A DNA stretch of 64,000 bases, taken from NCBI GenBank assembly GCA_021399445.1, contig JAJTUQ010000001.1:2604001-2668000 (forward strand). Reading direction: 5' to 3'. The DNA is from Xylogone sp. PMI_703. Taxonomy: Eukaryota > Ascomycota > Leotiomycetes. Every line of letters starts with the position of its first letter. Position 1 is the first letter of the stretch. A model generated the notes under the pieces. The model did no database searches. It saw nothing but the letters and a program-made list of their open reading frames with translations, and was not told where the DNA came from. Shown here piece after piece: positions 1 to 26,799 of the stretch. Made by a program: the position numbers and the translations under genes.

Positions 1-230
1 GTTAAGGTTGATAGGTAGGAGATGTGATTGTGGCAAAGTCTTTCGCGAGCGACACCATTTATGATGGTGGCTATAAGAGAACCGAGAAAAATGGTAATTG
101 CAAGGGCAAGAAATGAGCTTCTGAGATAGAATGGAGGCTTTGGTGGTTCGGTGGCGAGATCCTCGGGTTTGTCGCTGTCAGATGTGGAAGTTTGGAGCTT
201 CCGGTATAACCACTTTGGCTTTTGATACAT
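1..230 (-). CDS. UstYa/DUF3328-family protein, N-terminal part (cut by window edge)
   Basis: The reading frame opens with an ATG at 230-228 and runs to the window edge without a stop, giving 76 complete codons. It has a short basic, proline-rich cytosolic N-terminus, then one membrane span (about residues 42-60, LALAITIFLGSLIATII). This is followed by a luminal Cys-x2-His-x-Ser-Tyr pattern (CHNHISYLST). That order (short tail, single span, then a Cys/His 'C..H.S.Y' motif) is how UstYa/DUF3328 proteins start. These are fungal enzymes that oxidatively cyclise RiPP core peptides in the secretory pathway. The catalytic HxxHC motifs would lie outside the window, so function cannot be confirmed. 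It sits in the same AT-rich block as the other UstYa-like copies and the peptide precursors. Family assignment rests on pattern recognition and is reasonably but not fully secure. Confidence 0.62.
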   Translation of the reverse strand, partial: MYQKPKWLYRKLQTSTSDSDKPEDLATEPPKPPFYLRSSFLALAITIFLGSLIATIINGVARERLCHNHISYLSTL

Positions 231-2142
231 GAATACAGTAACGAATACTGCGAGTAGATGATATTTCCCCAATAGAGAAACCTATAAAGCTAGGTGTTGG
301 TTATCTATACTACAACCTACCCCTTCAGAATAATGAATGGGATCGATTTGCGAGTCTGTAATAAGAACACTGGGAAAGATCGCGAGATGGGGAAGGAATG
401 GGTGGAGGAGGTAAGGGAAGTGTGTAAATTTGCGAGGTAGGGCAAGCACCTTAGAAAAACGAGGAGGAAGTCACAGTACAGCCGTGCTGTTAGGTGGCCG
501 GGAGAAAGGGACCCCATGGCGTGGGACCCTTTGGACTCCTTCGTATACAGAACTAGGGAAAACATGCACACCAGGGCATTCCATCTTCGCCAAGAATATC
601 ACAAATGCTGAAAGCAGGGCCATACCCGCATCACCGTTGAAGTAAGATGCGGCATGGTTGAATGTACATGATAGAATACAGGGGCCCACATATGTTATGA
701 TAGATGCCATTTCTGACTTAAGGTGGAGAAACAGTAGATTAGTAAACATACATCCTTAATCTGTCCAAGGACGAAGATTCACCTTCTTTATACGGAAATC
801 CGGAACAGGAACTTAAAGTAAGGATGGGTGGAGAATAAGCTAAGCCTTATATAGCATACAGTAATGAGACGGGGCCAGAGTTATCACTTGTAATGGTACA
901 GTATGGCCCGGTCTAGAACAAGGGATTACCTACTATGGTCTCTACAATTAGATAATCCACCGAAAATAACAGAATACATGCCGATGATACCAATTATGTA
1001 GTCAGGACTTGGCAGCAACATCTTAATGGTACTAAACCTAACCAAGCAACTGAAAGGCCAGAGGTAGGCAACTACAACCCAGGTATGAGAGTTGTATACT
1101 TATATAAAACATGCAAAATTAAGAGCTAGAAGGGATTTCCTTGGAACGCTGCCTAAATTAATTTTGAAGTCAGCAAATCTCTAGATTAGAGCTAGATCAA
1201 TCGGACTGATATTCAAGAATCGGAGCATCAAAGTTAGTAGTGAGATGAATCCTCCTGTCATGTTTGATCCAGTTAAAGTACGGTCTCTAGATTCTATATC
1301 TACACAATCACTCTAATTTTATACACTTCTTCTGCCGTATTAACCATGTATGTTCATTCCTTCGGGCGTATTATTACTAACCTGATGCAGGTCAGTTCAT
1401 TATCTCAGTAGCTCGTATCTTTTGCAAGTATGCGTTGGGTTAAAGTTAGGCTGGTATTCTTGTCTAATCTGGTTGTACCGGAAGCCAATAATACCAATGT
1501 CGTCATGACAGGTTAACACTTGGCGGAGGTAGTCTATACAGTGATTTCTATACGTATCAGTAATTGCCCGCGGATATGATGTAAGACTTGGAGAGGAGTA
1601 GGGAGAGAGTACACACCACTATGGTTTACCTTATTTATGTGTTTTTCTAACCACGGTTCCCGAGGTGAGATCCTTGGAAGACCAATAACGGATCTAGTTG
1701 CTTGTTTAACACCATAGTCGGGTTCCTTGACATGAATTCCTATATTCCGCGCTCCTCTATGTCTGTCTAATGTACTCTAAAATGGGTAGCAAGTATTCCA
1801 CATTCCTACAATATCAGCACTAGTAGGACTCCTAATATAATGCCTATTACTATTGGTACAGCCTCCACCTTGCATTAGCTTCGGGTGTACCCCCTCCCCT
1901 AGGTGCTTATCCGGAATGCAAGGACCTCGGCCCAGTGAGCTTAGGGAAGTACTCCCGCAAGTAACTTAACGTGAATATATAATTATGTTATTTAACGCAT
2001 CCTAACAACATCGCTGCAACATGCGTCAAGGTGAACGTGGGGCTAGACAACCCTATCATACCCTATTCCAACTTCTCAATTAAAGCCTCCTTCAAATCCC
2101 GCAGTCCGAATACCGATACTTCTTCACCCAGTCATACAATGC
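231..2142. other. No recognisable gene; AT-rich spacer
   Basis: Only short open frames (all below about 95 codons) are present on either strand and none matches a family I recognise. Base composition is AT-rich and stop-dense, as in repeat-induced decay. The first few hundred bases contain the promoter side of the left-edge UstYa-like gene. Confidence 0.5.
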
Positions 2143-2409
2143 CTAATAGCCTTGACACTGATGCAGATTCTCATAGCCATCTACTTCGTGAAACCCTGCC
2201 TCGAATAGTCCTAGTGTGTTATCCGCTGCACACATAATGCTCTGTCGTAGATAGGCAAAGCAGCGCATCGTGCGCATCTCACTTTCCACATTACTGTCAG
2301 GAGTGGCGCAGTACCCATGATGGAGGAGGTATAGACAAGGAAGCTGGTCGAAAGTAGTATTTACCCGTTCCATTTGTGTCCGTTTCACCGACGCCCAGGG
2401 GCACCTCAC
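2143..2409 (-). pseudogene. UstYa/DUF3328 C-terminal remnant with all four motif histidines replaced
   Basis: An open frame of 88 codons matches the C-terminal half of a UstYa/DUF3328 protein. The tracts TFDQLPCLYLLHHGY and RCFAYLRQSIMCAADNTL, followed by a terminal HQC, are hallmarks of the family. The family normally carries two HxxHC motifs. Here the first reads DQLPC (2335-2349) and the second RTMRC (2260-2274), so both cysteines remain but all four histidines are gone. No N-terminal tail, membrane span or upstream exon can be joined to it; its first codons only partly fit the family. It is therefore either a decayed fragment or a non-catalytic relative. Loss of exactly the four metal or catalytic histidines, while the surroundings stay conserved, is odd. 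Upstream sequence at 2410-3500 shows no coding signal that I can trust. Confidence 0.7.
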
Positions 2410-3501
2410 CCGCCGTTCCCAACTTCTCCAGACTTACAAATCCTTTGCCCTCTTATGTAGCACGAGTGATCAGTATAGGATTAACAGATCTACGCTGGAG
2501 TGGTCAAATATGGTAGATACTTGGTATCAGATCTGCCCAAGCCGGAAATTAAAAGCTGTTTTGTCATTCAAACCCCGGATGCTAAACTTTCTGCGTGTTC
2601 TGGGTAGTTTGGAAGGCAATTTCTTAGCTCCATGAGGCTCCCAGCTTATTTAGCTACTCTTGCTTACGTGTACACTCAAATATACAATATATAGCCCGGT
2701 AGGTTGATAAAACTGCAGGTACTGAGTCAAGCTCGTTATTCAGGGCAGGTGGCTAAGGTACAGCAGGTACATATAAGTGGTTAATTGAGGTCGCAGAAAA
2801 GGAGACGGAAAATATTGTCGTTATACGAATATACGAATATACGATAATGTAACCCTATCGCAGATTCTTGACTCTAGTTATCTCCCTCCGGAATGATGCA
2901 ACTCAAACACCAAAATTAGACTCGATGTCATGGTAGGTATTTGCGAGTGCTCAGTGGATTCCGATAACAGCCGCAAAAGCCTTATTCCTTTCTTTGGGTA
3001 TCACTTTTCTGGTAAAATTATTCAAATCCCGAAGATTGAAAGGATTATAACTCTTGAGTCATTTTCTGGCATTTTAGGCGCTACGTATTTTACCTCCTGC
3101 CAGGGTGCTTCGTATAATAGCACGCATGGTCAGTCACTGCTTATACCTATTACAGTCATGATTATTTGTGATTGTAGATTCTAGTCCATGATTTATACGT
3201 ACTTTATACGTTCCCCTCCTGCGGACCCTAACACATATGATTTGAATCAAGAAAAACACTAGCTACAGAACGACAACATTCTGCTCTAAATAAAACCTTG
3301 ACATCACGAATTCGCTCAACCAGCGTTACTAATTCCGTCATCTCTCTCTGTTACTAGAAACTCCCGTATCCACATGGAGTAAACTGTCTCCCAATATGCG
3401 TACTTACCGGGTCATTACCCAGCCACTCTCCCTCCGTAATACCATCTCGCAATGCATTGTATTGTTACAAGCTGCGAGATAGCTATCCGAGGTCAACCCC
3501 C
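2410..3501. other. No recognisable gene
   Basis: AT-rich spacer with short random frames only. A short direct repeat of tatacgaa units lies at about 2822-2845. Missing 5' exons of the 2143-2409 remnant would be expected here, but I could not identify them. Confidence 0.45.
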
Positions 3502-4038
3502 TCATGAGCGCGGGATGCATTTGCGCCATTGAAACGTACAGTGCACATCATGGAACTCCACGATACCCAGGCGTCAAAGCTTCCCGTTCGTATATCGTCC
3601 ATCAAGATCAGCTCCCCTTGACCTATCTCTCCGTAGTACGCAGTGTACCATTTGAAGCCACGCGCCGTTTCGAACTCGGCAGTCAGCTCATGGTCGTAGC
3701 ATGCTGGGTCCACTCAGATAAAGCTCATAGTATCAAAATGGAGCCGAGTGATTTGGCTTCGGGGACCGATGATCTACAGCTATAGAAGAAGTCTTTGGAT
3801 TGCCAGACTTGGTTAGTGGATGTGACCGGGGCGGTGGATAGTTTTGCTGTGAGAAGGTAGAGGACGACGCCGGAGCAGGTAAACAATACGAGTGTAAGTC
3901 AGGAGATGGGCAGATTCACCGGCAATAATCGCCATTTGTAACCTAGGGGGTTCTTTTGACGATGAGACTGCTGCTCTTCTTCCTCCTATGAGATCTGCAT
4001 GTCGTGTAAAAAGAGTATTTTTCCGTCTCCAGCTGCAT
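3502..4038 (-). pseudogene. Decayed membrane-anchored protein of the UstYa-like 'C-x-x-S…EA…CYDxEL…HC' family
   Basis: Pieces in different frames line up, in order, with a fungal secondary-metabolite membrane family. They are: a basic N-terminus from an ATG at 4038-4036; a hydrophobic span (LTLVLFTCSGVVLYLL); a luminal YSCRSSVPEAKSLG block; a VDPACYDHELTAEFE block; and a C-terminal EFHDVHCTFQWRK block carrying the HxxHC-like motif. The frame is broken at several places: a stop before the span, a stop inside it (PIS then TGA), and a TGA at 3714-3716 where the family has tryptophan. There are also frame changes before the Phe-Asp and before the His-Cys block. It is not translatable as it stands. 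Proteins of this pattern often sit beside UstYa genes, which fits the neighbouring remnants. The exact family name is my inference from the motif pattern. Confidence 0.6.
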
Positions 4039-5894
4039 AGTGTAATCGGACTCGATACCAATTAATGATTGTGAGCTCTTCATTTCAGATTATCCAGTTA
4101 GCGGGCTTGGAATGTTAAGTTTGAATCAGATTATAAAGGACTATTGATAGTTAGGTAATAGTAATCATACCTTCACCGACATTAATATGTTATGGTGATG
4201 GTGATATTTAAGGTAAACATGCAGTGAAAGACAATAAGTTTGGACATGAAGTATAGCTGAACAAAGCAAAATCACTACTCTCAATGTAAAATAAGGAAGT
4301 GGAATGGAAATGAACTGGGTGCCGAGAACATATCTGGCATAAGAGAGGAGAAACCTACCTCTCGGACGCACATACAGTAGTTAATCGTCAGGCCCTTGCC
4401 AGCTCGTCGCTCAATTACTCCCTGATCACCCCAATATATTTCTCATCCGCAACACCGTTACACTCGCTCGCAGATCACAGCCACCTCAGTCAATACTTTT
4501 ATTCTGAAGCCCCTACATGAATTAATTATATTACCACGCATAATACGAATACTGCTCACGCTCAAATTTAAGCCTGCCACATTAATATTTCTATGTGCTC
4601 TGACGAGACTTACAGGAAAGTTACCTAGCGTGTATGAGGTATCACGAACCATCCTGCATAGGTAAGAGACTCGTACCTGGCATACGCAAACAATTGTCCG
4701 CTTAACATGGTTTAAGGGGACTAGATTGAAAAGCGCAGGAGTTGTTTGCACCTTCCACTATACATTATTGCTCATCATTGTACAGTATGATGTCTGATAA
4801 AGCTATGATGACGCACACCGCTCGGTCCTACAGCTGTTTAATTGTAACCAAAGCCCCCTCATATTATACTTATCTAGATTAAGTAATTCGAAGGACCTAC
4901 AGTGAGGTCATGTTCATTTTGGGATGGATAACATGGTTGTATTGTCCGTGTCATTTGAAATTAGAACCCATGAGAAGGGTTATTGCCACTGTGATGCCAT
5001 AGTGAAACTATCTGGTCATTGCCTACTTGGGAATGATAGATCCATATATTTACAAAACTATTCCTAAAATAACCGTCTGAGCTACGAATCCCCTACTTCA
5101 AATGAAGAAGTCCTTGGCCCGAAGCTGTGCGTATTTACATAGCCTCGATAGCGTGAAGAGCCCATCCGTGTGTATATGTTATGGTAAATACAAAATATTA
5201 GCCAAGTACAATTCACGGTTTTAGTATTTCTATTTTAACAATATAGAGACAAACTATTTGTGTAAATCAGTAATGCAAATAGATACAAGGTCATAAGGAC
5301 TTTGTATCACTGTTACACACGCCATTATACGAACAAGGTAGACCGAGGCTTAATTCCCTGTGAGGAAATGACCGGTTTCCGAAGGCATAGTCTAAGGCCA
5401 ACAACCGAATATCCGGAGATATAAAGCACTCCATTATGCCTATGTATATAGCTCTACTTGACCACTATTCTCTGACTTTTACTCTTCGGTTCGACTAGTC
5501 TTAGCTATACGAGTAATTAGATGCTACGTTGCCATTCTTTATAACCAATACCCTGTAAAATAGAATTATGATAAACTAGTAACTAGTACAACAGCGAATG
5601 GAAGTTGCAAGCATCATAGACTGTCTGTAGAATGATTACTTTGAAACACATGACAGGATGACAGGGAAATGTACGTAAAACGTTATAACGTTACAGCGTA
5701 GACCAAATCGGACAAAATACATCAGCCTGCGGCCGAACAGAACTTCTAAGCTTATATACCAGCTGCTTATCCCTCATCCCTTACTACTTCCTAAGCATTC
5801 ATCCCCAATAGTCATCTTTACTTTCGCCACTTGAGCCTGTCTACTTACTTCAAAATCTAACCCTCAGAGTCCCAACTAGCATATCAGCAGCAAC
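4039..5894. other. No recognisable gene; AT-rich spacer
   Basis: Stop-rich AT-rich DNA. The open frames at 4165-4371 and 4458-4751 (minus strand) have no recognisable domain. The last about 100 bases, pyrimidine-rich with CA-rich stretches, look like a normal fungal promoter and leader for the secreted peptide gene that follows. Confidence 0.45.
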
Positions 5895-6107
5895 ATGAAG
5901 TACTCTATTATACTCTCCCTCGCTCTGTTGAATATTGCACTTGGTGTGCCATTAGCCTCAAAACGCGAGGTTGGCGTCGTTAGCTTCCGAGGTGCATACA
6001 ACGATGAAGACAAGCGTGCTGTAAGCTTCGAGCGCGGAATCAATGAGCCTAATGAGGTCGGCCAGAGCTCAAGGCTCTTGCGATTTGAGAACATGCCACC
6101 ATGTTGA
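5895..6107 (+). CDS. Small secreted protein with Kex2 sites; possible decayed RiPP precursor
   Basis: The ATG at 5895 opens a 70-residue protein with a clear signal peptide (MKYSIILSLALLNIALG, cleavage near Gly-Val-Pro). Two dibasic LysArg sites follow (ASKR and EDKR). The segments after them resemble each other: VVSFRGAYND and AVSFERGINE. A third related segment (reading VGFQGAYK) lies after the stop, at about 6112-6135, in another frame. It could be reached by an intron from the GTAAGC after the second KR to the CAG at about 6122, or it may be lost through decay. Kex2-processed repeat proteins are precursors of dikaritin-type RiPPs, and Gly-Ala-Tyr would be a fitting core because tyrosine is a common cyclisation residue. 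The alternative is an ordinary small secreted effector-like protein. Expression and exact 3' end are uncertain. Confidence 0.55.
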   Translation: MKYSIILSLALLNIALGVPLASKREVGVVSFRGAYNDEDKRAVSFERGINEPNEVGQSSRLLRFENMPPC

Positions 6108-8870
6108 TAGGGTTGGCTTTCAGGGCGCTTACAAGGGAGGTAGGAGGTTTCTGTGAGTCTGGTTGTGGATCTCGGACGAAATACCTAGGGTAAAGCAGCT
6201 AAGGGGGCTGGTAAACAGAAGAAGGAAAGAATATCGGGAATATGGTTACGTTTTGATATGTTTCGGTAAACTCAGTGATATAGAAGCTTGTTTATCCTTT
6301 GGCCTAGTTGTTGAATGTTAGTTGCTACCTGATGCTGGCATCTGCCTGAGTACAAACTTCTTGAGCATCCACTTTAATGATTCACTTAGATGTTAACCTT
6401 TCCTGTACCCCTTCTCGGCACTAATCTGGTAATATCCTCCAAATCAATGCTCCTATCGTCATCTGCACGGATTCGGAGTCGTTGTATGAAAGTCTGGTTA
6501 AATTGGGAACGACGAACGAGAGACGATTGACGGTAGACGTTATGTAATTGACAGCGGCCCACGAGAGACGTGATGCGATCGGGGATTCCCACAGGAAGTA
6601 TTCCTTTTCAGGGAAGCGGTTATTTGTGAGAAGTTTTAAGTTCAAGGAAATGAGTTGTTTCCTTATTATACAACTCACTACAAGAAGAATTAGAAGTTAT
6701 CACTAGTCTGTGTCAGCATCCCATTGGCCATAACACTCTATAATCTTATATTTTATCACAGCGGATGGTTTATATTACAATAAGTCAGACATACAGTGAA
6801 TTAACATGAAACCAATTCATTCTCAATTCACCCAATTTTTCCAAACCAGTACCACAATTCACCTAATTCACCATCCAAGAAATCCCATGCCTTACAAAAT
6901 TCTGCGTTCTCCCAACCTCAACCCGTGAAGTAGTTTCAAGCATTCTTTTCAGTGTCTGCATAAGTTTTGTCTTCGAGAAGTCATGTCTTCCAGCCCAGGA
7001 GTCTAGACAGATGCGATAAAAGGCTAGGATCGATGGCGAGTCACGGTGAAACAAAAGGAAGATGATCATACGAGACATTGTTGTCATTATCTCCTCTCAT
7101 CCTCACTCCGATTTCTGTTGCTGGTATTGTCGTTGTCGAAATACTTATAGCTCATTCTCGCTACTAGGGTCCGCGCTAGTGCAGTGAACTTTGTTATTGC
7201 TGGATATATATGTAGAGATTGAGCGGCCTAAACGTTCTTCGTCTAAGAAGTTATGCACACCTGTTCCCGTTGATTTTCAGTTCAGTCTTCAAAAGATTTC
7301 AACAAAAAAAACCCCCCTTTTAACAGAATTTCGATTAAGATAGTAAGAGCGAGGTCGTACCTATCGCTTCCAAAGCTTGGCCACTAACAGACCTAGTAGG
7401 CTAGCTCTTTCTCTCATCTCAATCATAGCCGCATTTCTCGCACCATAGACCTTCATCATTGCAGCTATGGGGGCAATCGATTCGTTTGCCATTTCCCTTT
7501 GTACATCTCGGATTGCCGCGTCCATTGTTTGGTAGAATAATCCACTCTCGTCACGATATCATGGGGCCATCCATCGGTCCCATATTACCATCGTACCATT
7601 CAAGCCCAGGAAAACAGTGCTGCAAGATGTATTCCAAAGCTTTTTGATTCTTCTTAGATAAAACTCTTCGATTTTTGATGTGAATAGATAACCTGATTCT
7701 TGGAACTGATATAGATGTTCTGCCAAATCTTTAATATCCGGAGGTATGAGTAAAACAGTGAGTTAAGCCTGAATTTCAGCTTTTCATTGATGATTCAGGA
7801 CTGATGAGAATAAGGGCAGCGGTTTGAGTCGTGAGATGTAAAAGATGTATCCATTATTACCAATTTTCAGAAGAAAAAAAAAAACAATTGGTCTACTTGG
7901 TACCCTTCAGGCCTATGAAGATGGTGTTAGAAGTAGCCGATTGATTGACTGATGGCACGGATGAAATTATCCATCATTACTAATTTGGTAAAGTCAGTGT
8001 AGTTCTTGTAGTTCTTGTCATTCTTGTAGTTCTTGTCAGGTTTGATCAAGATGTTCCATATTTCTATGAATATTTACCTGTCTAGATCTCTATCTGGGTG
8101 TTTAGCATCTTCTTCCCTCCTTTGATTTGATCTGCTTTAAGTGGTTATCCAGGGTGATTTTAAATACTGCCTGCGCATGGGACCCTAGTTCTAGATATCA
8201 AGCATTTTTCTTCGTGACGTCCCTGATTTCTCGCCTTATAAGATCATTCTGCTTTGATGTAGAAGTGGGGCAAGTATCGAAGAAAGGGAGTACTCCAGAT
8301 TGGGGTTGGAAAACACCACAAAATCCTGGCGAAAGTGAATGCATTCCCGGTTGATGACTACTGACAGTATTTACGTGCTCAGCTGATACCAAAATGGAAT
8401 CTAAGTGAATCACCGCTTTGAATACTTTTTATGAGACTAGTATTTCAAATCAAAATAGTTTCCATTTCTCTATGCCGATCGCCATAAAATCCTCCATTCT
8501 ATGCCTGCCTGCCGCAACCTATTCAGCCCAGTTTCCCATATCCCGTCTCTGGGGAATCAAAATAACAAGTATGAGCGTAAAACAAAAGAGAAGCACGTAG
8601 AAACGAAAATAAAATGATGGCCTGATGAGACTTCAGAATGAAATGAGACGCGAAATATGGTGGCGAAGTAACGCCGGTGCGATGGGTATCGTGTCGGTGA
8701 CCTCGTGAGGAACTTTTTTCAGTGGTCATGTGTGAATGAATGGAGAGGAGAGCAGAAAAAGAAGAGAATGGAAAGAGAGCCCGAAATAGATTTCCCTTCC
8801 AGCTGCGGCTGCAGACTAACAACCACCAATGCTCAACGCTGAATGCCCAACCTTCCCAATCAAGAACAGC
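6108..8870. other. No recognisable gene; AT-rich spacer and 3' flank of the perilipin gene
   Basis: Short frames on the minus strand at 6386-6678 and 6863-7087 look slightly protein-like but match nothing I know. The remainder is stop-rich. About 8420-8870 lies just beyond the stop of the perilipin-like gene and probably includes its 3' UTR. Confidence 0.45.
7998..8039. repeat. Imperfect short tandem repeat (gtagttctt unit)
   Basis: About four and a half imperfect copies of a 9-base unit (gtagttctt, with one gtcattctt variant) stand head to tail in otherwise non-coding DNA. Confidence 0.75.
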
Positions 8871-9621
8871 TTAATTTGCTGGCTTCTCTGGCGCAGACTC
8901 CTTCACCGCAGCCTCAGCTTGCTCCTTCTTCTTTGATAAGAAAGCCGAAGCATAGTTGAGCAAATCCCCGGTGATTCCCAAGCCGGTTGCGAGGAGAGCT
9001 TTTCCCTGGCCGAAGAGACCCTCATCTCCAACCCTCTTGACTTCGGAGTTATACTTGTTCAGGACGTACTCTTTGCCTTCATTTCCCTTCTTAAGTGGGA
9101 AGAAGACAATGCTCTTGCCCTCGGAGTAGAGCTCCTCGGTAGGTTTCTTGATCTGTGGGAAGCGACTGTCAATTGTGGAGAGAGTGTGATCACCAAAGCT
9201 GTCGGCTCTCTGCAGATAAGGCGAGATGTATTGGTATGGGGTATGGAGGTATGGGGCGAATGGCTTGCTGATGCGCTCGTAGCTCTGGGATGTGAGGTCG
9301 ATAGACTTGCGGCCGTATGGGTTGGCCTTGAAGGTCGAGATGGAGTCGTGGACTATTGGGTAGGATGTGAGGTGCTGTAGTAGCTGTTAGCATATCCGCA
9401 CACGAGCAATCAGGTAGCATTGGGGATGGTAGAGAGCAGTGATCTAAAATAGAGATATATGTATGTGTGTGTATGTATATCGGAGAACGTACGTGCAAGA
9501 AGGCGGACGAGGAAGTCTCGCCGTTAACCTGGGCCGCCATTTGGGATTGGGGTTGAGATGAGGAGTTGACAGGCGTGGTGGAGGATGGAGTGGACTCGTT
9601 GGATGGGTCGGCGTGTGGCAT
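8871..9621 (-). CDS. CAP20/perilipin-like lipid-droplet protein
   Basis: Two exons, 9621-9493 and 9374-8871, joined across a 118-nt GT-AG intron, encode about 210 residues. The second exon begins HLTSYPIVHDSISTFKANPYG and continues with the helical segment typical of the fungal CAP20/MPL1 perilipin family, ending in a Lys/Ala-rich tail. Known members coat lipid droplets and control lipid breakdown; in several plant and insect pathogens they are needed for appressorium turgor. The start at 9621 is the first ATG of the exon; a second in-frame ATG (MAAQVNGE, residue 29) gives a protein closer to the usual family length and could be the true start. The gene stands alone in a GC-balanced island between AT-rich blocks and shows no damage. 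No direct link to the RiPP remnants is evident. Confidence 0.87.
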
Positions 9622-12600
9622 CAAGAGATCTAGAAGGTGAGCCGCGTTTTCTGTCAGCTACTAGTTCGAGTGATTGATTAATTGATTGCTAGCTGTCTTG
9701 GAAGAAGCAGCAACCATGGCATCTGCGCACGAGACCCTTTGCAGGCGGCACGGATTGAGATGGCACAGGGTGAAGGAAGAACAACTTACAGCTCTCTGGA
9801 CCACGGCAAGCTGCGTGGAGATGATCGTGGGACAAGGCTTGGGTCGAGATGCGAAGAGTGATCAGGTGAGCTTGCTGGAAGCAGGTCTCACAAGAAGAAT
9901 TCCGTCTACAGCAAGGCCTTGCAGCGGTAGATATTTGAAGAGCGGCGTTGAATACGACAGGACGTCTTACGGCTGATGGCTTCTCAACAGAAAAAATGGA
10001 GTTGTAAGGGTTGCGATGGGAGAGAACAGGCAGAGGGAGGAGAGGGGGACGGGAGGAGTGAGGAGGTGTGGGAGGGTTTTTAAGAGAGGAAGAAGCAGCA
10101 GCTCTGATGTAAGGGAAGAAGCTTGGGCGCTGCGGGAAGCGTGGGCGGTGATTGGCCAAGAGGGGAGGCGGTGCGCCACAGGGCAAATCTAGGTGTTTCT
10201 GACATGTGCAACTCGTTGTTTCTCGCGTTCGCTTTTCTTCGCTCTTTCACTCATAAGATGCTCCTTTTGCCTCTTTGCGCCTTTGTCGTATGGGATCGTA
10301 TTATTTGCTGTTACGCTACTGTAATCTGCCTGCTCTACCTGGGCCTGGGCCACTACACTACAGTACTGGCCGCGCATGCGACGGGCAATGAGAGCGCGGA
10401 ACCAGCATCCCGGGTCCATCTGCCCGATCGGATCTGCGACAAGTGTTTCTGCTGTCTTAGTCAAGCACCTTAATTTGGTCATCTATATCTCTCTTCTTTT
10501 CTTTATACATCCAAGCTTACTTTGTTAGTACAGTAGCAGAAGGTGTTAGATAAGAGCATGAAAGAATGGGAAGAGGTATGAGCATGAGACCGAGCTCAAG
10601 CTTGAGCAATAGCATCAGCAACGGTAGTGCCCCGCTCTGAATCACCTCAGGACAGCGCCTGGTCCTTGCGCCGCCCGCTCAAGCTTTCCCGTTGCCAGCT
10701 GCACAGCACAAAGCAATGAGAACAGCAGCAGTAGATGGTCACTCACTGCTATTATTATTACAACTACTATAATACAATACCCCTATTATTTATTTGCATG
10801 CTGCAGAGTATTTATATTTGTCCAAAGTGCATCTGCAGCACGGGATTAATTATTGGATGCAGCTTCTGAACAGAGAAATCAACCCCACTAAGGCAGGCGA
10901 ACCCTTGTGGCTCAAGTTGCAGAGACCCACCTGTGCTGTTTCCCTTTGACATGTGAAAGTCGGCTGCGTCATCTTGTGTACAGTACTGGCATCCTCTTTC
11001 ACGTGCAAGGCAATCAATCGCCTCAGTCCAATTCAATTCAATTCAATTCATACTCAATCTTCTCGCGATCAGCATATCTTTGAATTAATACCAGAGTAAA
11101 GGAGCTACAGTACTCTCCAGCTTCAAGAGTTGCATGCGGCAATTATGTGCACTACCAGAGGCACGAAGGCGGCAGGGCAAATGGGCGAGAATCCCGTCCT
11201 CTGGCCAATGGCCAGCCCGCTTGTGCCGGGTCCTTCGGATGCCTTTCTACAATGCATGTCCAGAAAAGCTGCCTCCAACCAATAATGCATCCACGGAAGC
11301 GCGTCACGACAATAGAAATCAAGGAAATCGCACCCTCGACTGCTTTCTATCGCTGTTGCGCAGCTGTCGCGGTTCGCATCTTGCAGCTGCCAACAGCCAA
11401 CTGCGACGGTAGCAGGGAGATGGAATTCTCGCAAGCATCGCACAGGATCAATGGTGCTGTTGCAGCAGTGCAGCCTGCAGCCTCGCACGGCCGCTTCTGC
11501 TACCTGGAAATCACCACTGATAAGACGAGTAGAGCACACGAACCCCTCAGGATCGATAGGACGGCAGCATACCGTGTCAGCAACACCAGAACACCGTGTT
11601 CGACTCCCCAGCAAGCATTGCTCCCAGCGCGAGAACAAATCAGAGATCGGGCGGGATTCGGCAGATATCCCAAGCACAATTGGATACGAGTTCTGAGATG
11701 TTACATTGGCGGTGGAGTGACGCTGCATAGAAATGATTGATATCGAATTGACAGACGGGATTTGTCAACTACTCAGATGCTGGACTGGTTGTGCTGCCGT
11801 GACTGCTACAGTACAGACGGGGCGCTCACGACAAAGAGATAGCTAGTTCCCTCGATTCCAAAAGATTCTCTTATCACGCAATGGACACGCCAAGCTGCTT
11901 GGGGCTCCAGCGCTCTCGATGAGGATTCTGAGCCACCTCTTGCCCGTCCAGCGCCCAGTCATCCTCGCGTTCCCGATGCCCTCATACCGGCCCAGCAAAG
12001 CACCATCTCTCTTCCGTCGTCGCAATCTTCACCCGCGCTACAGCAGTGCACTGCGAACGGACCGTCCGGGCCTCGCTCCGGCTCGAGTATCCTTTCCTCA
12101 TGAAGCATCGATCGAAAGAGCCCCCAAGCCGCTAGGTCCCTCGAAACTCCTTCCTAACTCCTTCCTCCCCTTTCTCGTTTGGTGCCATCACTGCGCTATC
12201 TGCTGCCCCACCATCGCCCACGGTCCGGCACCAGCCACACTACCGCCCAGGGGCCACAGCTTTGAACGTCGCTTGCATGTGAAAGTGGCGGGTGCGGCAC
12301 CCGATCATCACCACACTCTCAACGTTTTGCGCATTCAGCGATAAGAGCCTGGTTCCTAGGCACTCTCGGTCTGAAACGGGCAGGTGGACGCGCCCAACAA
12401 TTCAGGTACAAAATCGATGTATATCTCTCAATACCTTCTCTTATCTCAATTCTCATTACTAATGAAACGACTCTAGCGACCTGTCTTTTGGCATGCTTCT
12501 GCTTGGATGAAGACAATGGTGTCGAAGTCTTTGCGCCGACGAGCCTCCCTGGTCGAGTAATGGGGCAACATGCCACCATCCTAATAAATTCAAGGCTGAG

Positions 12601-12900
12601 CATGTGAAATGTGCTCACCATTTGCAATCTCGTGGGGCTGGAAATATCTCCGACCAGATCATCCCAACCTAGGCGTGGCGTTCATCTCATGTCACCGGAC
12701 GTATCAACTACGAAGGAGTACCTCATCAGCCACCCATGTCCCCACCACGCATGAACACACAACTCGGTACCTCTACCGACAGGCGCATCGCAATACAGGC
12801 TCAATAGGGGTGTAACACAACACGGGCATCCATATGTCTTTGATCCTCGGGATGGCAATCTTTCCTTCTCATCATCCTCTAGGCACTATCTACCGCGGCT
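9622..12900. other. Long non-coding region upstream of the perilipin-like gene
   Basis: This stretch is GC-balanced, unlike its neighbours, yet contains no frame with a recognisable domain. Overlapping open frames on both strands (for example 11123-11740) look like chance frames. It contains pyrimidine-rich tracts and several copies of a TACAGTAC motif (about 10358, 10979, 11106, 11808). It may be an extended promoter, long leader or non-coding transcript region of the divergent or downstream gene. Confidence 0.4.
11031..11050. repeat. Microsatellite, four attca units
   Basis: Four perfect head-to-tail copies of the 5-base unit attca, in non-coding DNA. Confidence 0.9.
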
Positions 12901-14098
12901 TTCACTCCTGACTCGATTGATCTAACATAGTATTACATACGCTAAGTTTATCTTTCATACTTCTTAAGTCACATTCTCTTTGCTCTACGATAATCACATG
13001 ATCCTAAATGGGTTATGCTCACTCAAAGGCTAAGTACCTTCTTAAATTAAAACATGACTCGATTATCTCATACTAATAATATGATAGCATGCTTATGATA
13101 AGTTAATTAACCCCCACGACAAAAAATATTAGTTTACTAGTTTCAGATGCTTGTGACAAGTAAGCTGCAAAAATTTCGATACATATATATCCACATTCAA
13201 ATATCTCGTTCTGTACTATTCTCTAGAATGCGTTTAAACTCCTGCCCCCAAGAGGACAGGAAGGCGTTGTTCAATTAAATTAAAGAAATACTCATCTAGA
13301 ACTATGAACACTCGAGTTGCAGGCTTTTAAATACTGACCGGTCCACTGCGGTAAGATGTTTGATATCTCCTCTGACGAAGATATCTTCCTTAGCTTTCCA
13401 CTGCAAAAAGCGTTATTTAGCAGTACTGTTTGGTTCTCTTAGATGGGTCTGACGATGAACGTATATCGATGTAAATATCTTCTGAGACAACCTACCAGAC
13501 GAATATATGTTTTAAGCTTTTGCAGTATAACAAGGAAGCTGAGTTTGTATTCGCTGCGATCTTGTCTTATGGTGTTGTTATTCCCGGAGACGTCACTCCG
13601 CGTCTCGGTGTTGTCCCTTGTTGATAAAGGATATCCACGGTATGTTTTTGAAGCTTTTAAGGTAATGTTGAGTTTTTCGAATTTGCGCTGGAGATGGTCT
13701 TCGAAGGTTCAGCTCGCAACTATCACGGCATCTATATATGCTCTACTGAATAGATATGAATCAAAAGAACGGATATTCAAGAAACTCATGAATAGGCTTA
13801 TACATAGCTGAGTTTGCAGGCCTTATAGGCTACAAACTACAGGCTACCCGGTACAGCGATAAGTATACTGTATACCTTACGTGATAATACAGCTGTTTAC
13901 AAATAAATCTGATTGAAGTATCAAGTTGTGGATGTATTTTGTAGTACACGTGTCAAGTTGACAGTGTAATAAACTGACGGTAAATTAGTGTACGGATTGG
14001 TCTATACGTTAATCGCCTTGAAGATTGATGTATGGAATGGCCCATTAGCCAATGGTACGATTGTCGTATGAGACAGAACATTATGTATTCAACTACCA
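12901..14098. other. No recognisable gene; AT-rich spacer
   Basis: Composition drops sharply to AT-rich at about 12.9 kb. One 122-codon plus-strand frame (13443-13811) has no recognisable motif and no clear start context, so it is not called. The segment lies downstream of the UstYa-like gene that ends at 14099. Confidence 0.4.
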
Positions 14099-15032
14099 CT
14101 ATAGATTACCAGGATTGCCCGTACGATTCACACCAGCGTGCTCGTTCGTCCACGCCTTAACGTCTTCAAAGCTTTTACACATGTGGCGCGATCCCCACGG
14201 AATGGAGATGCTATTTCCAGGTGAGGAGTGGTCGCCTTCCAACGTGGTGTCAGCTTGACACATGATCCCCTGCCGTAGATAGTCAAAGCAATGTGCTATA
14301 TGATGTTGGTCCGCGGAGGGATAAACCGCTTCTTCGAAATTCGTATTCGAGTATGCGAGTAGAATATTAGACTTTTCTATGGCATTAACAAATTAATGAA
14401 ATTGTAGATTATATGCTGGATACATACCAGACAGTGCAGTTGATGAAACACGGTTATCATATACGAAGACGACGATGCTTCTGAATCTGGCATCTCAACG
14501 TTATATGGTCTGCCAATAATGTATTTCTCCGGCTCCGATATTGTAACCATGCCTCTTCCATAAGCTGTGATTTTATGTTAACATAACCATCTTTTCAGCA
14601 CTGGCGTGGAAGATTGACGTACCTGGAGCCATAGATATCCAATTGGCTAGGATCTGCTTTAGGAGCGTAGCATTGGTAAACATGTGCTCTTCGCTAAAAG
14701 TGAAATCATTCATGAAAACTGTCGTTTGCATAGAGACTGTAGGGTGCATCAAAGTCTCAGTAAATACATATTCTTGATAAAACAAAGGTATAGAGTAACT
14801 GACATTCTGGAACTGGAGTCGGGATTGTCGTTTTGTGATCTGGCCCCCTGGCGGGCGATTTTGATGCAACAAGTAAAAGTATCGTGATTGCCATCAGGAT
14901 TTCGAGTCCTGACCTGGCAAAACTGTTGCAATACTTCACCCATGGTGGACGATGTTTAGACTGTGGATAACGGAGATCTTCATCGCTATATGAATCAAGC
15001 TTCGCATAAAGGGCCTGCTCTTCTTCCGCCAT
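14099..15032 (-). CDS. UstYa/DUF3328-family RiPP-cyclising oxidase, near-complete, one frame problem
   Basis: The ATG at 15032-15030 starts a cytosolic tail (LYAKLDSYSDEDL), a single span (LEILMAITILLLVA) and a luminal IPTPVPE motif. Exons then join at 14623/14564 (58-nt intron, GTACGT) and 14428/14371 (56-nt intron, GTATGT). Both HxxHC motifs are intact: HQLHC at 14445-14431 and HIAHC at 14302-14288. Between them are the usual YGRGMVTI block and, after them, CFDYLRQGIMCQADTTLEG; the stop is TAG at 14101-14099. UstYa proteins oxidatively cyclise core peptides of dikaritin RiPPs. Just after PVPE the frame shifts by one: the next homologous block (FQNVSYSIPLFYQEYVF) is in another frame. A 58-nt intron (14870-14813) would rescue it, but its donor GTTGCA is weak and it would remove the conserved PVPE spacer. 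A true frameshift is therefore at least as likely. The peptide precursor lies 1.5 kb away. Confidence 0.8.
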
Positions 15033-16489
15033 CTTCCGTCATCGAGCAGGTACTGCAAGTGTTTAGGGCCGTATATAGCTCTGGGACACATATAACTTTG
15101 TACCGAGTTTACTAAAGTTTGATATTCTCTATCGGTATATTTCTGTTATAAAAAAGAGAACATTAAGAAAAGTAGCCCTCACACTCGGTCAAATTTTCGC
15201 GGATTATTTTGCAAGAGGAATAGGAAAAACATAATACACCAAGGAAGTGATAGGATTCCGATTATTGAAACATCCGAACTTACACACCCCGAATCGAATT
15301 CTGCTTACATGTGTGCTCGGACCGAAAATTTAATTGTTGCCCCATACATTACAAGAGTTAACTTACTACAATTGTAATATAGATGTAATATACGGAAGTT
15401 CCGAAAGCGCTTCCGTAGATTCGACTTCCGTAGAACGCGTTATAATTCTACTTTGTGGCTAGAAATAGCACACCTAAACTAGATGAAACATTTAACATAT
15501 AATTTTACTACCTCATGCTCAATAATCATTACAGTATACACTGCCTGTCTCCTTACTGTGTACTGTGTAAATGTAAGTTGGTGGGTCTATAAGCCGCAAG
15601 GGCACACAACCAATCGAAACTGACGGAATCCTCTATCAAGTCTAAATTGAGATGCCGCCCTACCCGACGTACACATGGGGGAGTGCATGCTTATAACGAT
15701 ATTTGTGATAATGATACTGTTTTTAGTTGCTGTTGCCATAATACAATGAAATTAAGTCGCCCCGATGGATCTAGTGACTTCTTTATCCAGTTCATCAATG
15801 CTTCGCGGCTTCGTCAAAGGTAGGGAGTATTCAATCCGACTAATATATCAAGAAGCTTGGCAACTTCGACTACGACAAAATCCTAACAGCAAAAACTTCA
15901 AGTCTATGAGATCGGCTGAGTTCGAAATCTGCTAATTAATGGTTCTGTAGTGCTTATTATATTCTCACTCTGATCTGACTGCATAGTGCTAGTTAGATGT
16001 TACCATTGTCCGGAGTAGCTCAGTATTTCGTTCATTTGCTGAGGTTCGGCGCCGACTCTCAGGATAATTCAAGAAGCTAGAGAGTTACGCTAGTATTGAG
16101 GTCGATTGCTTGTGCTCCGATTAATCTATTATCCCCTTGTCAATTTTATCCGCTTCGCAAGAACGGGGTTTCGACCAATAGTATAACTGGGATCTGTAGA
16201 ACTGTCACTTACCAGAGGCTAAATTCATTAACCAAAACACCAAGTACATACCGGGAACCTCTCTTCTTCCTGTATTCTATTTCGTAACATTCGGGATTTG
16301 CCCTTCTAAGATTCTAGTTATTGTTCAATCCATGTGTCAGTCTTGCTAAGCTATACCTGTATTTTAGTAATCCTTAATGGCAAGAGCAAATATATAAACC
16401 ACACAGCAGCACTCATATTTCCATTCTATCAAAGATACCTTCCATCTAGTAAACTTGAACTACTTTCTTGATCCGTTACATCCACCAAG
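15033..16489. other. No gene; divergent promoter region between the UstYa-like gene and the peptide precursor
   Basis: AT-rich DNA without recognisable coding frames separates two genes pointing away from each other (minus at 15032, plus at 16490). The last about 100 bases contain a TATA-like tatataaacc (16390-16399) and a CA-rich leader ending caccaag just before the ATG, typical of a working fungal promoter. Confidence 0.5.
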
Positions 16490-16892
16490 ATGAAGACTAC
16501 TACTATTGTTCCACTTATTGCGGCTTTTTTCGCACTCACTAATGCCGCACCTCTGAGTCCACCTGTAAGAATACGCCTAGACGTACCATGAAGTTGAGAT
16601 TAGCTAACTTGATTCAGCAGTCAATTGCCCGTGATGTAGGTAAAAAGTATTTGACGTTCACACAGATTTCTTACAGATTTAACAGGTGAGCTCCTCCATT
16701 GAAATGAGAGCCGGAGAAACCATTGAAGCGGGAGCCGATTGGAAGGCAAAGAGAGAGGTTGAGGCAGGCTCTGATTGGAAGAGAGAGGTTGAGGCAGGAG
16801 CTGATTGGAAGGTAAAGAGAGAAATTGAGGCGGAGCCGACTGGAAGGCAAAGAGAGAGGTTGAGGCAGGAGCCGATTGGTAAACACTGTTGA
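16490..16892 (+). CDS. Kex2-processed repeat precursor peptide (candidate dikaritin/RiPP precursor)
   Basis: Three exons (16490-16564, 16618-16635, 16686-16892) give about 99 residues; intron 1 has a GTAAGA donor and a CTAAC branch site. The N-terminus is a signal peptide (MKTTTIVPLIAAFFALTNAA). The last exon holds tandem units with the form EV-E-A-G-(A/S)-D-W-K ending in LysArg or Lys-x-LysArg, three in frame. The DNA continues for two more units, but a single-base deletion near 16830 (gaggcggag where the other units have gaggcaggag) throws them out of frame. In the original frame the last unit would stop right after Trp. Secretion signal plus identical units between Kex2 sites is the hallmark of fungal KEP/RiPP precursors such as those of ustiloxin and epichloecyclin. 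The core here contains Trp, not Tyr. A UstYa-like gene is divergently placed 1.5 kb away. A mating-pheromone precursor is the main alternative, but the repeats lack its usual Trp-Cys core. Confidence 0.78.
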
Positions 16893-26003: not shown

Positions 26004-26799
26004 TACGGCTGGCCCGGGTGCCACTCGCGCCACAACGACTAACAATTAATTATTACGAATTATCGATTTACCAAACTTCCGCATATTTAGCTATTTACTA
26101 TAGATTCAGCGATAATCATGATATTTAAGCTGTATAATAATTTATTCGATCATAACTTGCCAAGAGAAGGAGGTGATTGACAGCCAAAGCTCGTCGGTAT
26201 GAAGTATAGGCGCTACAGGGCATTGCTTACAGGCTTAAACCCTACAAGGTGTCGCTTACAGGGCCTTGGGCCTGTAAGCGTGCTAGAAGGAGCCAACGGC
26301 CGTAGGGCGTTGGCGATACGGTACAGCCCATACAGTACGGTACAGCCCATACAGTACGGTACAGCCCATACAGTACGGTACAGCCCATACAGTACGGTAC
26401 AGCCCATACAGTACGGTACAGCCCATACAGTACGGTACAGCCCATACAGTACGGTACAGCCCATACAGTACGGTACAGCCCATACAGTACGGTACAGCCC
26501 ATACAGTACGGTACAGCCCATACAGTACGGTACAGCCCATACAGTAGGCCTAAAGCCCTATAACCGAAGCCTGGTAGGGCCTCGGTGCCTTAGGCCGACC
26601 ATAGGCCGACAAGCTTTAAAAGCTAACTATCCTTTTATTTTGAGTTGGTTATAAGTAACTTAATTTCCATACAGTCTAGCTATTATAAGGTAACTAAATA
26701 TATGGAAATTTGTTGAATATACTGACGTTTGGTAAATTAATAATATTTAATGATTAATTGAAAATCGTTGTGGCGCGAGTGGCACCTGGGCCAGCCGTA
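26004..26799. mobile_element. Non-autonomous DNA transposon (MITE-like) with terminal inverted repeats and TA duplication
   Basis: The ends are inverted copies of each other. The left, from 26006, reads CGGCTGGCCCGGGTGCCACT and the right, read on the minus strand from 26797, reads CGGCTGGCCCAGGTGCCACT, continuing CGCGCCACAACGA on both. Similarity goes on, with gaps, through an AT-rich subterminal zone (tttaccaaac on both sides). Each end is flanked by TA (26004-26005 and 26798-26799), the target duplication of Tc1/mariner/pogo-type elements. There is no transposase frame; the centre holds a 12-copy tandem repeat and GC-rich ggccgtagggc-type palindromes. It must depend on an enzyme encoded elsewhere. 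Two degraded relatives lie at about 17.5-18.2 kb. Confidence 0.8.
26317..26544. repeat. Twelve perfect tandem copies of a 19-bp unit
   Basis: The unit tacggtacagcccatacag is repeated exactly twelve times (228 bp) without a single difference. The unit length is not a multiple of three, so the open frames that run through it on both strands are by-products of the repeat, not genes. Perfect identity amid degraded DNA suggests very recent expansion or ongoing homogenisation, and copy number is probably variable between strains. Confidence 0.97.

Follow-up and report, generated by a model that had tools for sequence, protein, structure and literature searches.

The dikaritins (ustiloxin, phomopsin, asperipin-2a, epichloecyclin and victorin) are the closest described relatives of the locus reported here. 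These fungal ribosomally synthesised and post-translationally modified peptides (RiPPs) are defined, in the accessible text of PMC10512285, by a precursor with a signal peptide and Kex2-separated repeats, encoded beside UstYa/DUF3328 genes. In one DUF3328 enzyme, CctR, copper is bound at the motif HxxHC(x)nHxxHC (PMC12435403, accessible part). Searches for such RiPPs anchor on the Pfam family PF11807 (PMC7329392 and PMC9632046, as far as their accessible text goes). The former counted 7878 Kex2-processed repeat proteins (KEPs) in 1461 strains, of which 6120 were without DUF3328, the neighbours being called with Pfam 32.0 at 1E-5. In its accessible text, tyrosine occurs in 65.6% of the repeat sequences of DUF3328-accompanied KEPs. 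Here we analyse a stretch of 64,000 nucleotides from the filamentous ascomycete Xylogone sp. PMI_703, of the Leotiomycetes (C1:2604001-2668000, hereafter the window), which carries such a precursor, and compare it with the rest of the searched genome (50.1 Mb, 25 contigs).

Like the dikaritin loci, the window encodes a secreted precursor with Kex2-separated, near-identical repeats, and a UstYa gene lies 2.4 kb away (start to start, divergent transcription). It also encodes a predicted membrane-anchored protein of a family that Pfam does not recognise, with two HxxHC motifs, which we call the sister family. In our view, the region probably represents a decaying version of a three-part RiPP cassette that recurs in this genome. 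Its parts are a KEP, at least one UstYa/DUF3328 oxidase and at least one sister member. The grounds are the components themselves, their recurrence, the conservation of the motifs and the decay. The recurrence is seen at three other loci with paralogous precursors. The nearest PF11807 match lies 2.4 kb from the precursor in the window, 3.2 kb on C3, 4.0 kb at C1:8.78 Mb and 4.9 kb on C21, and the nearest sister match at 17.0, 3.9, 7.7 and 7.9 kb, respectively (all start to start). As a dikaritin-type variant, the cassette differs from the described members in the alpha-factor-like KR-(EA/EP)n spacers, in cores that end in D[WF] (without tyrosine in the window) and in the second, Pfam-less HxxHC family that accompanies these loci; the window copy, in addition, appears to be frame-broken. 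The window contains the following features.

1-227, minus strand: N-terminal part of a sister-family gene, a single open frame of 231 aa whose remainder lies in the left flank
1406-1591, minus strand: UstYa (PF11807) remnant, second-motif region only, neighbouring frames broken, E 6.8e-13
2119-2409, minus strand: UstYa (PF11807) remnant, E 1.9e-6 (match 2119-2355), with one in-frame stop inside the match
3486-3713, minus strand: sister-family gene remnant in two frames (3486-3713 and 3505-3573), E 0.0086 for 3505-3573
5895-6107, plus strand: short secreted-looking open reading frame (ORF) with two KR sites, putative locus member
14099-15032, minus strand: UstYa/DUF3328 gene encoding the motifs HQLHC and HIAHC
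16490-16892, plus strand: KEP gene, with a signal peptide exon, QSIARDV and repeats E[VI]EAG[AS]DWK with dibasic ends
16723-16879, plus strand: 36-bp tandem repeat array within the KEP gene, from a repeat search

A preliminary description of this DNA had proposed a scattered, decayed dikaritin-type locus. This stands for 14.1-16.9 kb, where KEP and UstYa gene are found, and fails for several of the other parts assigned to it. The PF11807 search of the genome returned 108 exon matches, which merge at 20 kb into 48 loci. Three matches fall in the window, all on the minus strand. The one at 14138-14323 (E 4.2e-16) confirms 14099-15032 as UstYa/DUF3328, the one at 2119-2355 agrees with the UstYa remnant suspected at 2143-2409, and the one at 1406-1591 is an additional remnant that had been overlooked. 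The same profile does not recognise 1-230, also claimed as DUF3328. This piece has no Pfam match at E<=10 and is the sister-family N-terminus instead; extending leftward, as had been suggested, shows the gene at 1-227 carrying on into the flank (C1:2603532-2604227). The supposed related membrane-anchored pseudogene at 3502-4038 is indeed a gene remnant, but of the sister family, which is different from DUF3328 (the longer piece, 3486-3713, was assigned by eye). Two Kex2 peptides had been listed: 16490-16892 is the repeat precursor, and 5895-6107 was unsupported as a second one, with no repeats and no relatives that we could find. The CAP20-like gene placed between the two halves was absent among the ten ORFs tested. 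Repeat-induced point mutation as the cause of the decay was unsupported by our test.

In the UstYa gene at 14 kb, HQLHC and HIAHC lie on separate exons and the two later introns are GT..AG by eye; between exons 1 and 2 we found no canonical donor that preserves the transmembrane helix. Both UstYa matches on the left are fragments amid broken surroundings, and neither HxxHC motif is present in a readable frame of the remnant at 2119-2409.

The window precursor has three full in-frame repeat copies and, in this assembly, an apparent frame break within copy 4 of 5. Its database model, F5884DRAFT_892884, continues beyond the break in a shifted frame. When the unbroken part of the precursor was searched against the genome, the hits were the precursor itself, the repeat copies at its own end and a weak match on C3 (E 0.47). 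The C3 precursor as query retrieved C1:8783333 (70%, E 2.5e-25), C21:2829926 (71%, E 4.4e-24), the window precursor (E 0.019, 45%) and, as a weak match, a DWKR repeat at C1:422597 (E 0.003). All four precursors have an AAP-containing signal peptide, then S[IA]A shortly ahead of the first repeat, and EA/EP/EV spacers after KR. Between signal peptide and repeats the frame changes; the window's database entry models introns there, and for the three paralogues introns are inferred. The paralogue cores are QFSNKDW on C3 (six copies), QYRNADW at C1:8.78 Mb (six) and QFRN[TD/TN]F on C21 (eight). Their consensus, Q[FY][RS]N[AKT]D[WF], has an aromatic residue near each end, and in all three the last repeat copy ends in D[WF] followed by the stop. 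The window core, (E)AG[AS]DW, is shorter. Its repeats contain tryptophan and no tyrosine, a residue that is usual rather than defining in such precursors; among the three paralogue cores, tyrosine occurs in one and phenylalanine takes its place in two. One search for relatives of the window precursor in other organisms, with three candidates, found only the genome's own model. The repeats at C1:422400-422900 (L044, minus strand) are of the GGGGSTGSNPDWKR type and lie in an open frame; the nearest UstYa or sister match is more than 390 kb away.

The window sister gene is a single frame of 231 codons, and its product is predicted to be anchored by one modelled helix. Against NCBIfam (E<=1) the protein gave weak rows only, none near cut-off. 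Searching a large protein collection with it returned five proteins including itself, the closest being 70% and 66% identical and the last from Pyrenula. A profile of 12 members extended this to 17 proteins, with Xylogone, Pestalotiopsis, Neopestalotiopsis, Polychaeton, Stictis and Colletotrichum among the sources. These are labelled 'hypothetical' or 'uncharacterized', or carry no label, and none of the 17 has a precomputed Pfam domain. Invariant in their alignment are C95, G96, A102, C107, D110, W116, C121, D143, H170, H173, C174, H200, H203 and C204. The family has an N-terminal signature, CGxSxxEAxxxGCxFD...W...C, that is absent from the four UstYa proteins aligned. The HxxHC(x)nHxxHC arrangement of UstYa/DUF3328 is found in 25 of the 26 members read (24/24 in a wider set and one of two further copies at L013); about 14 of the 41 matches in this genome were read as sequence. 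An earlier description of the family was not found in the literature searched, supplements and most subscription papers being outside reach.

Several comparisons link this family to UstYa/DUF3328 (PF11807), which includes the copper enzymes CctR, AprY and ApnU. The AlphaFold model of one sister member, of middling confidence, would resemble UstYa in a putative transmembrane helix (38-65) and in two helices (167-186 and 198-213) that each carry an HxxHC, about 30 residues apart. PF11807 similarity at E<0.01 was detected in 6 of the 24 distinct members scanned, at best with 24.0 bits (E 4.1e-5, profile 5-178), but all 24 remain under the Pfam gathering cut-off of 25 bits. A profile-profile comparison scored 32.7, whereas 100 column shuffles reached no more than 18.3 and the reversed profile 12.0. 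In return, the hidden Markov model of the sister family matches a true UstYa with E 8e-5. The two families differ in the extra Cys-rich N-terminal signature of the sister proteins and in the DYLRQ-like stretch after the second motif, which their alignment lacks by eye. Among solved structures, sequence searches gave no match for the sister or for one UstYa, and the UstYa profile gave a single chance-level row (E 0.18). Our best reading is that the sister family is a distant UstYa branch beyond Pfam recognition, whose members are likely copper enzymes, both copper and chemistry being judged from sequence.

Sister genes concentrate near UstYa genes across the genome. Merging three queries gave 41 sister matches, the window gene included and a few of them stop-broken. 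The nearest PF11807 match lies within 5 kb for 25 of them, within 10 kb for 31 and within 20 kb for 33; the other eight are farther than 20 kb from any. Random placement at 10 kb gave a mean of 1.1 and a maximum of 5 in 2000 draws (eight contigs). As a control, we took cytochromes P450 (92 scored of 367 candidates), of which 1/92 has a PF11807 match at up to 10 kb and 6/92 at up to 20 kb. From the side of UstYa, 18 of the 48 loci have a sister match within 20 kb and 30 do not.

We then asked where KEPs occur, reading 16 UstYa loci at about 10-20 kb, working along the contigs from C1 as far as C12. A KEP was present at 4/7 loci with a sister match within 20 kb (window, L013, L016/17 and L021) and at 0/9 without (one-sided Fisher test, 0.019). 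The former becomes 5/7 when the KEP at C1:8.78 Mb is counted, 0.4-0.7 kb beyond the sequence examined (0.005). A two-site repeat at L027 (KK-type sites) is a weak call that we discounted as chance; counting it as a KEP weakens the association to 0.077 and 0.024. Shorter stretches of about 3.5 kb gave one KEP without a sister (L002) and none at the sister loci L004, L005 and L037. The link between sister genes and KEPs was then tested at C20:0.22 Mb (L040), where a sister locus is more than 270 kb from the nearest PF11807 match. This locus contains a nine-copy KEP with KTQSAPFRVEAENVKR-type repeats (2457-3005; KEP at C20:218956) between two sister genes. Further sister loci remote from UstYa are at C1:2444509, C1:3469794, C19:864381, C20:737918 and C22:3668072. 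On the figures of PMC7329392, about five KEPs to a strain, meeting one fortuitously in two stretches of 10 kb would be unlikely; this is our own arithmetic, and the definitions of a KEP differ. Control DNA (window 17-64 kb, L010 and L012; 67 kb) had no KEP-like repeats. In all, nine KEP-like arrays were found. PF11807 matches lie within 5 kb of seven of them and sister matches within 17 kb of seven; eight have at least one of these partners and one has neither. These counts are biased because six of the nine arrays came from inspecting UstYa or sister loci.

Some of these loci have further features. Within about 12 kb at C1:1007794-1019921, a KEP with DFAEPLLGEDVSKR-type repeats is accompanied by two UstYa and four sister matches, and one of the sister copies there has degenerate motifs. 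A cluster of four UstYa and four sister matches at C1:8104 kb includes an eight-copy KEP, QTTGDKSPKYEDYEVSKR (L016:8068-8598, plus strand), whose EDY core resembles those of ustiloxin and phomopsin. Beside the UstYa-free KEP, an exon at L040:6453-7567 (plus strand) is CDH-cyt/DOMON-like (E 1.1e-5, 25.7 bits, just under cut-off), and next to it comes, by eye, a b561-like membrane frame; the pair is a possible electron donor for copper oxidases.

A number of results weigh against the cassette reading. The closest genome paralogue of the window UstYa gene (59%) is at C21:5205429, which has no sister match within 20 kb, so that the cassette was not simply co-duplicated; co-duplication of the UstYa gene with the precursor was unsupported on the same ground. 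Two of the four cassette loci (window and C3) were discovered starting from UstYa. Among the KEPs retrieved by precursor search alone (C1:8.78, C21:2.83 and C1:422597), two of three have both partners and one has neither. The KEP at C20:1.06 Mb (L002:236-631, minus strand) has no sister match within 300 kb; its repeats, at 1058 kb, are of the [AGE]RDTDNVASY[QE]WKK type and adjoin two UstYa matches. The UstYa-remote sister locus L041 had no KEP in 9 kb, which leaves one with a KEP, L040, out of the two such loci examined. For the sister family itself, the own probability given by HHalign for the relation to UstYa is low (9.7; 33.8 in another comparison). The AlphaFold model is middling (mean predicted local distance difference test 67.8, predicted template modelling score 0.54), and a fold search of the PDB with it gave 28 rows at E<=10 and none at E<=0.001. 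One copy, L013:5306-6070, has neither motif intact (YLVHC, HTKNC), having lost one histidine in each. Finally, the two halves of the window may be independent because the sister gene is 17 kb from the KEP, with decayed genes between; what joins them is solely that these three components turn up together again elsewhere in this genome.

This last point would be explained if the remnants were unrelated, with KEP and UstYa gene at 14-17 kb as one pair and, apart from it at the left edge, a conserved sister gene amid old UstYa debris. The DNA over these 17 kb is decayed or featureless, and the relatives of the sister gene elsewhere are 70% and 66% identical, hence it is maintained while its neighbours decay. 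We nevertheless regard this explanation as rather unlikely, since PF11807 and sister matches lie within 8 kb of the precursor at the three other paralogue loci. Less probable still, in our view, is that the sister proteins are non-catalytic or structural and merely co-occur with UstYa in secondary-metabolite compartments. Their own N-terminal signature, unseen in the four aligned UstYa proteins, and the loss of two motif histidines in one copy would fit. However, the 17 aligned sequences show no variation in the four histidines and two cysteines of the motifs, both motifs are present in 25/26 members read, and P450s show no such co-location with UstYa. KR-(EA)n spacers mark alpha-factor-type precursors processed by Kex2 and Ste13. 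The precursor could accordingly be pheromone-like and release a linear peptide, the nearby UstYa being incidental; the EA/EP/EV spacers in 4/4 paralogues suggest this, as does the accessible text of PMC6339444, where Ste13 processing is not predicted for ustiloxin and phomopsin precursors. This we consider improbable. All four paralogues have a PF11807 match within 5 kb (two were found via UstYa), their cores are all different, and the KEPs annotated as mating factors or pheromones in the accessible text of PMC7329392 have DUF3328 genes alongside in only three exceptions.

Under the cassette reading, the precursor would enter the secretory pathway and be cleaved by Kex2 after KR. A Ste13-like dipeptidyl peptidase would remove the EA/EP spacers and a carboxypeptidase would strip the trailing basic residues. 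We infer this order of proteases, like the product, from the precursor. UstYa and sister enzymes, presumably membrane-anchored in the secretory lumen and with a two-copper HxxHC...HxxHC site, may oxidise or cross-link the core, going by the CctR paper and the identity of the motifs. UstYa-type cross-links could plausibly form at the aromatic residues on either side of the paralogue cores, of which the window core keeps only one. The window copy probably no longer yields the ancestral product because its core is shrunken and its precursor apparently frame-broken.

The KEP at C20:0.22 Mb resembles the KEPs without DUF3328 of PMC7329392, but it is flanked by two sister genes, which are invisible to a Pfam-based survey. 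From the accessible text, that survey would not count sister genes because its neighbours are Pfam-based. The sister branch could be a general partner of fungal Kex2-repeat precursors, together with UstYa at many loci and alone at some, a generalisation that we offer tentatively, at slightly less than even confidence. If true, part of the 78% of KEPs counted without a cyclisation factor would be modified peptides. With the same copper motif and the same address, and no Pfam model over cut-off, the sister family would expose RiPP loci missed by PF11807 rules. The recurrent KR-(EA/EP)n precursor family stands between pheromone-type and dikaritin-type precursors, where UstYa is rarely reported.

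The left flank (L009, C1:2594001-2604000) contains pieces of a FAD-binding monooxygenase (PF01494; 8459-8818, minus strand), of a Zn2Cys6 regulator (3859-4236, minus strand) and of a major facilitator superfamily transporter (468-1493, plus strand), which are possibly further remains of an old gene cluster. Elsewhere in the window, at 26317-26546, there is a perfect 19-bp tandem repeat (TACGGTACAGCCCATACAG) of 12.1 copies with 100% match.

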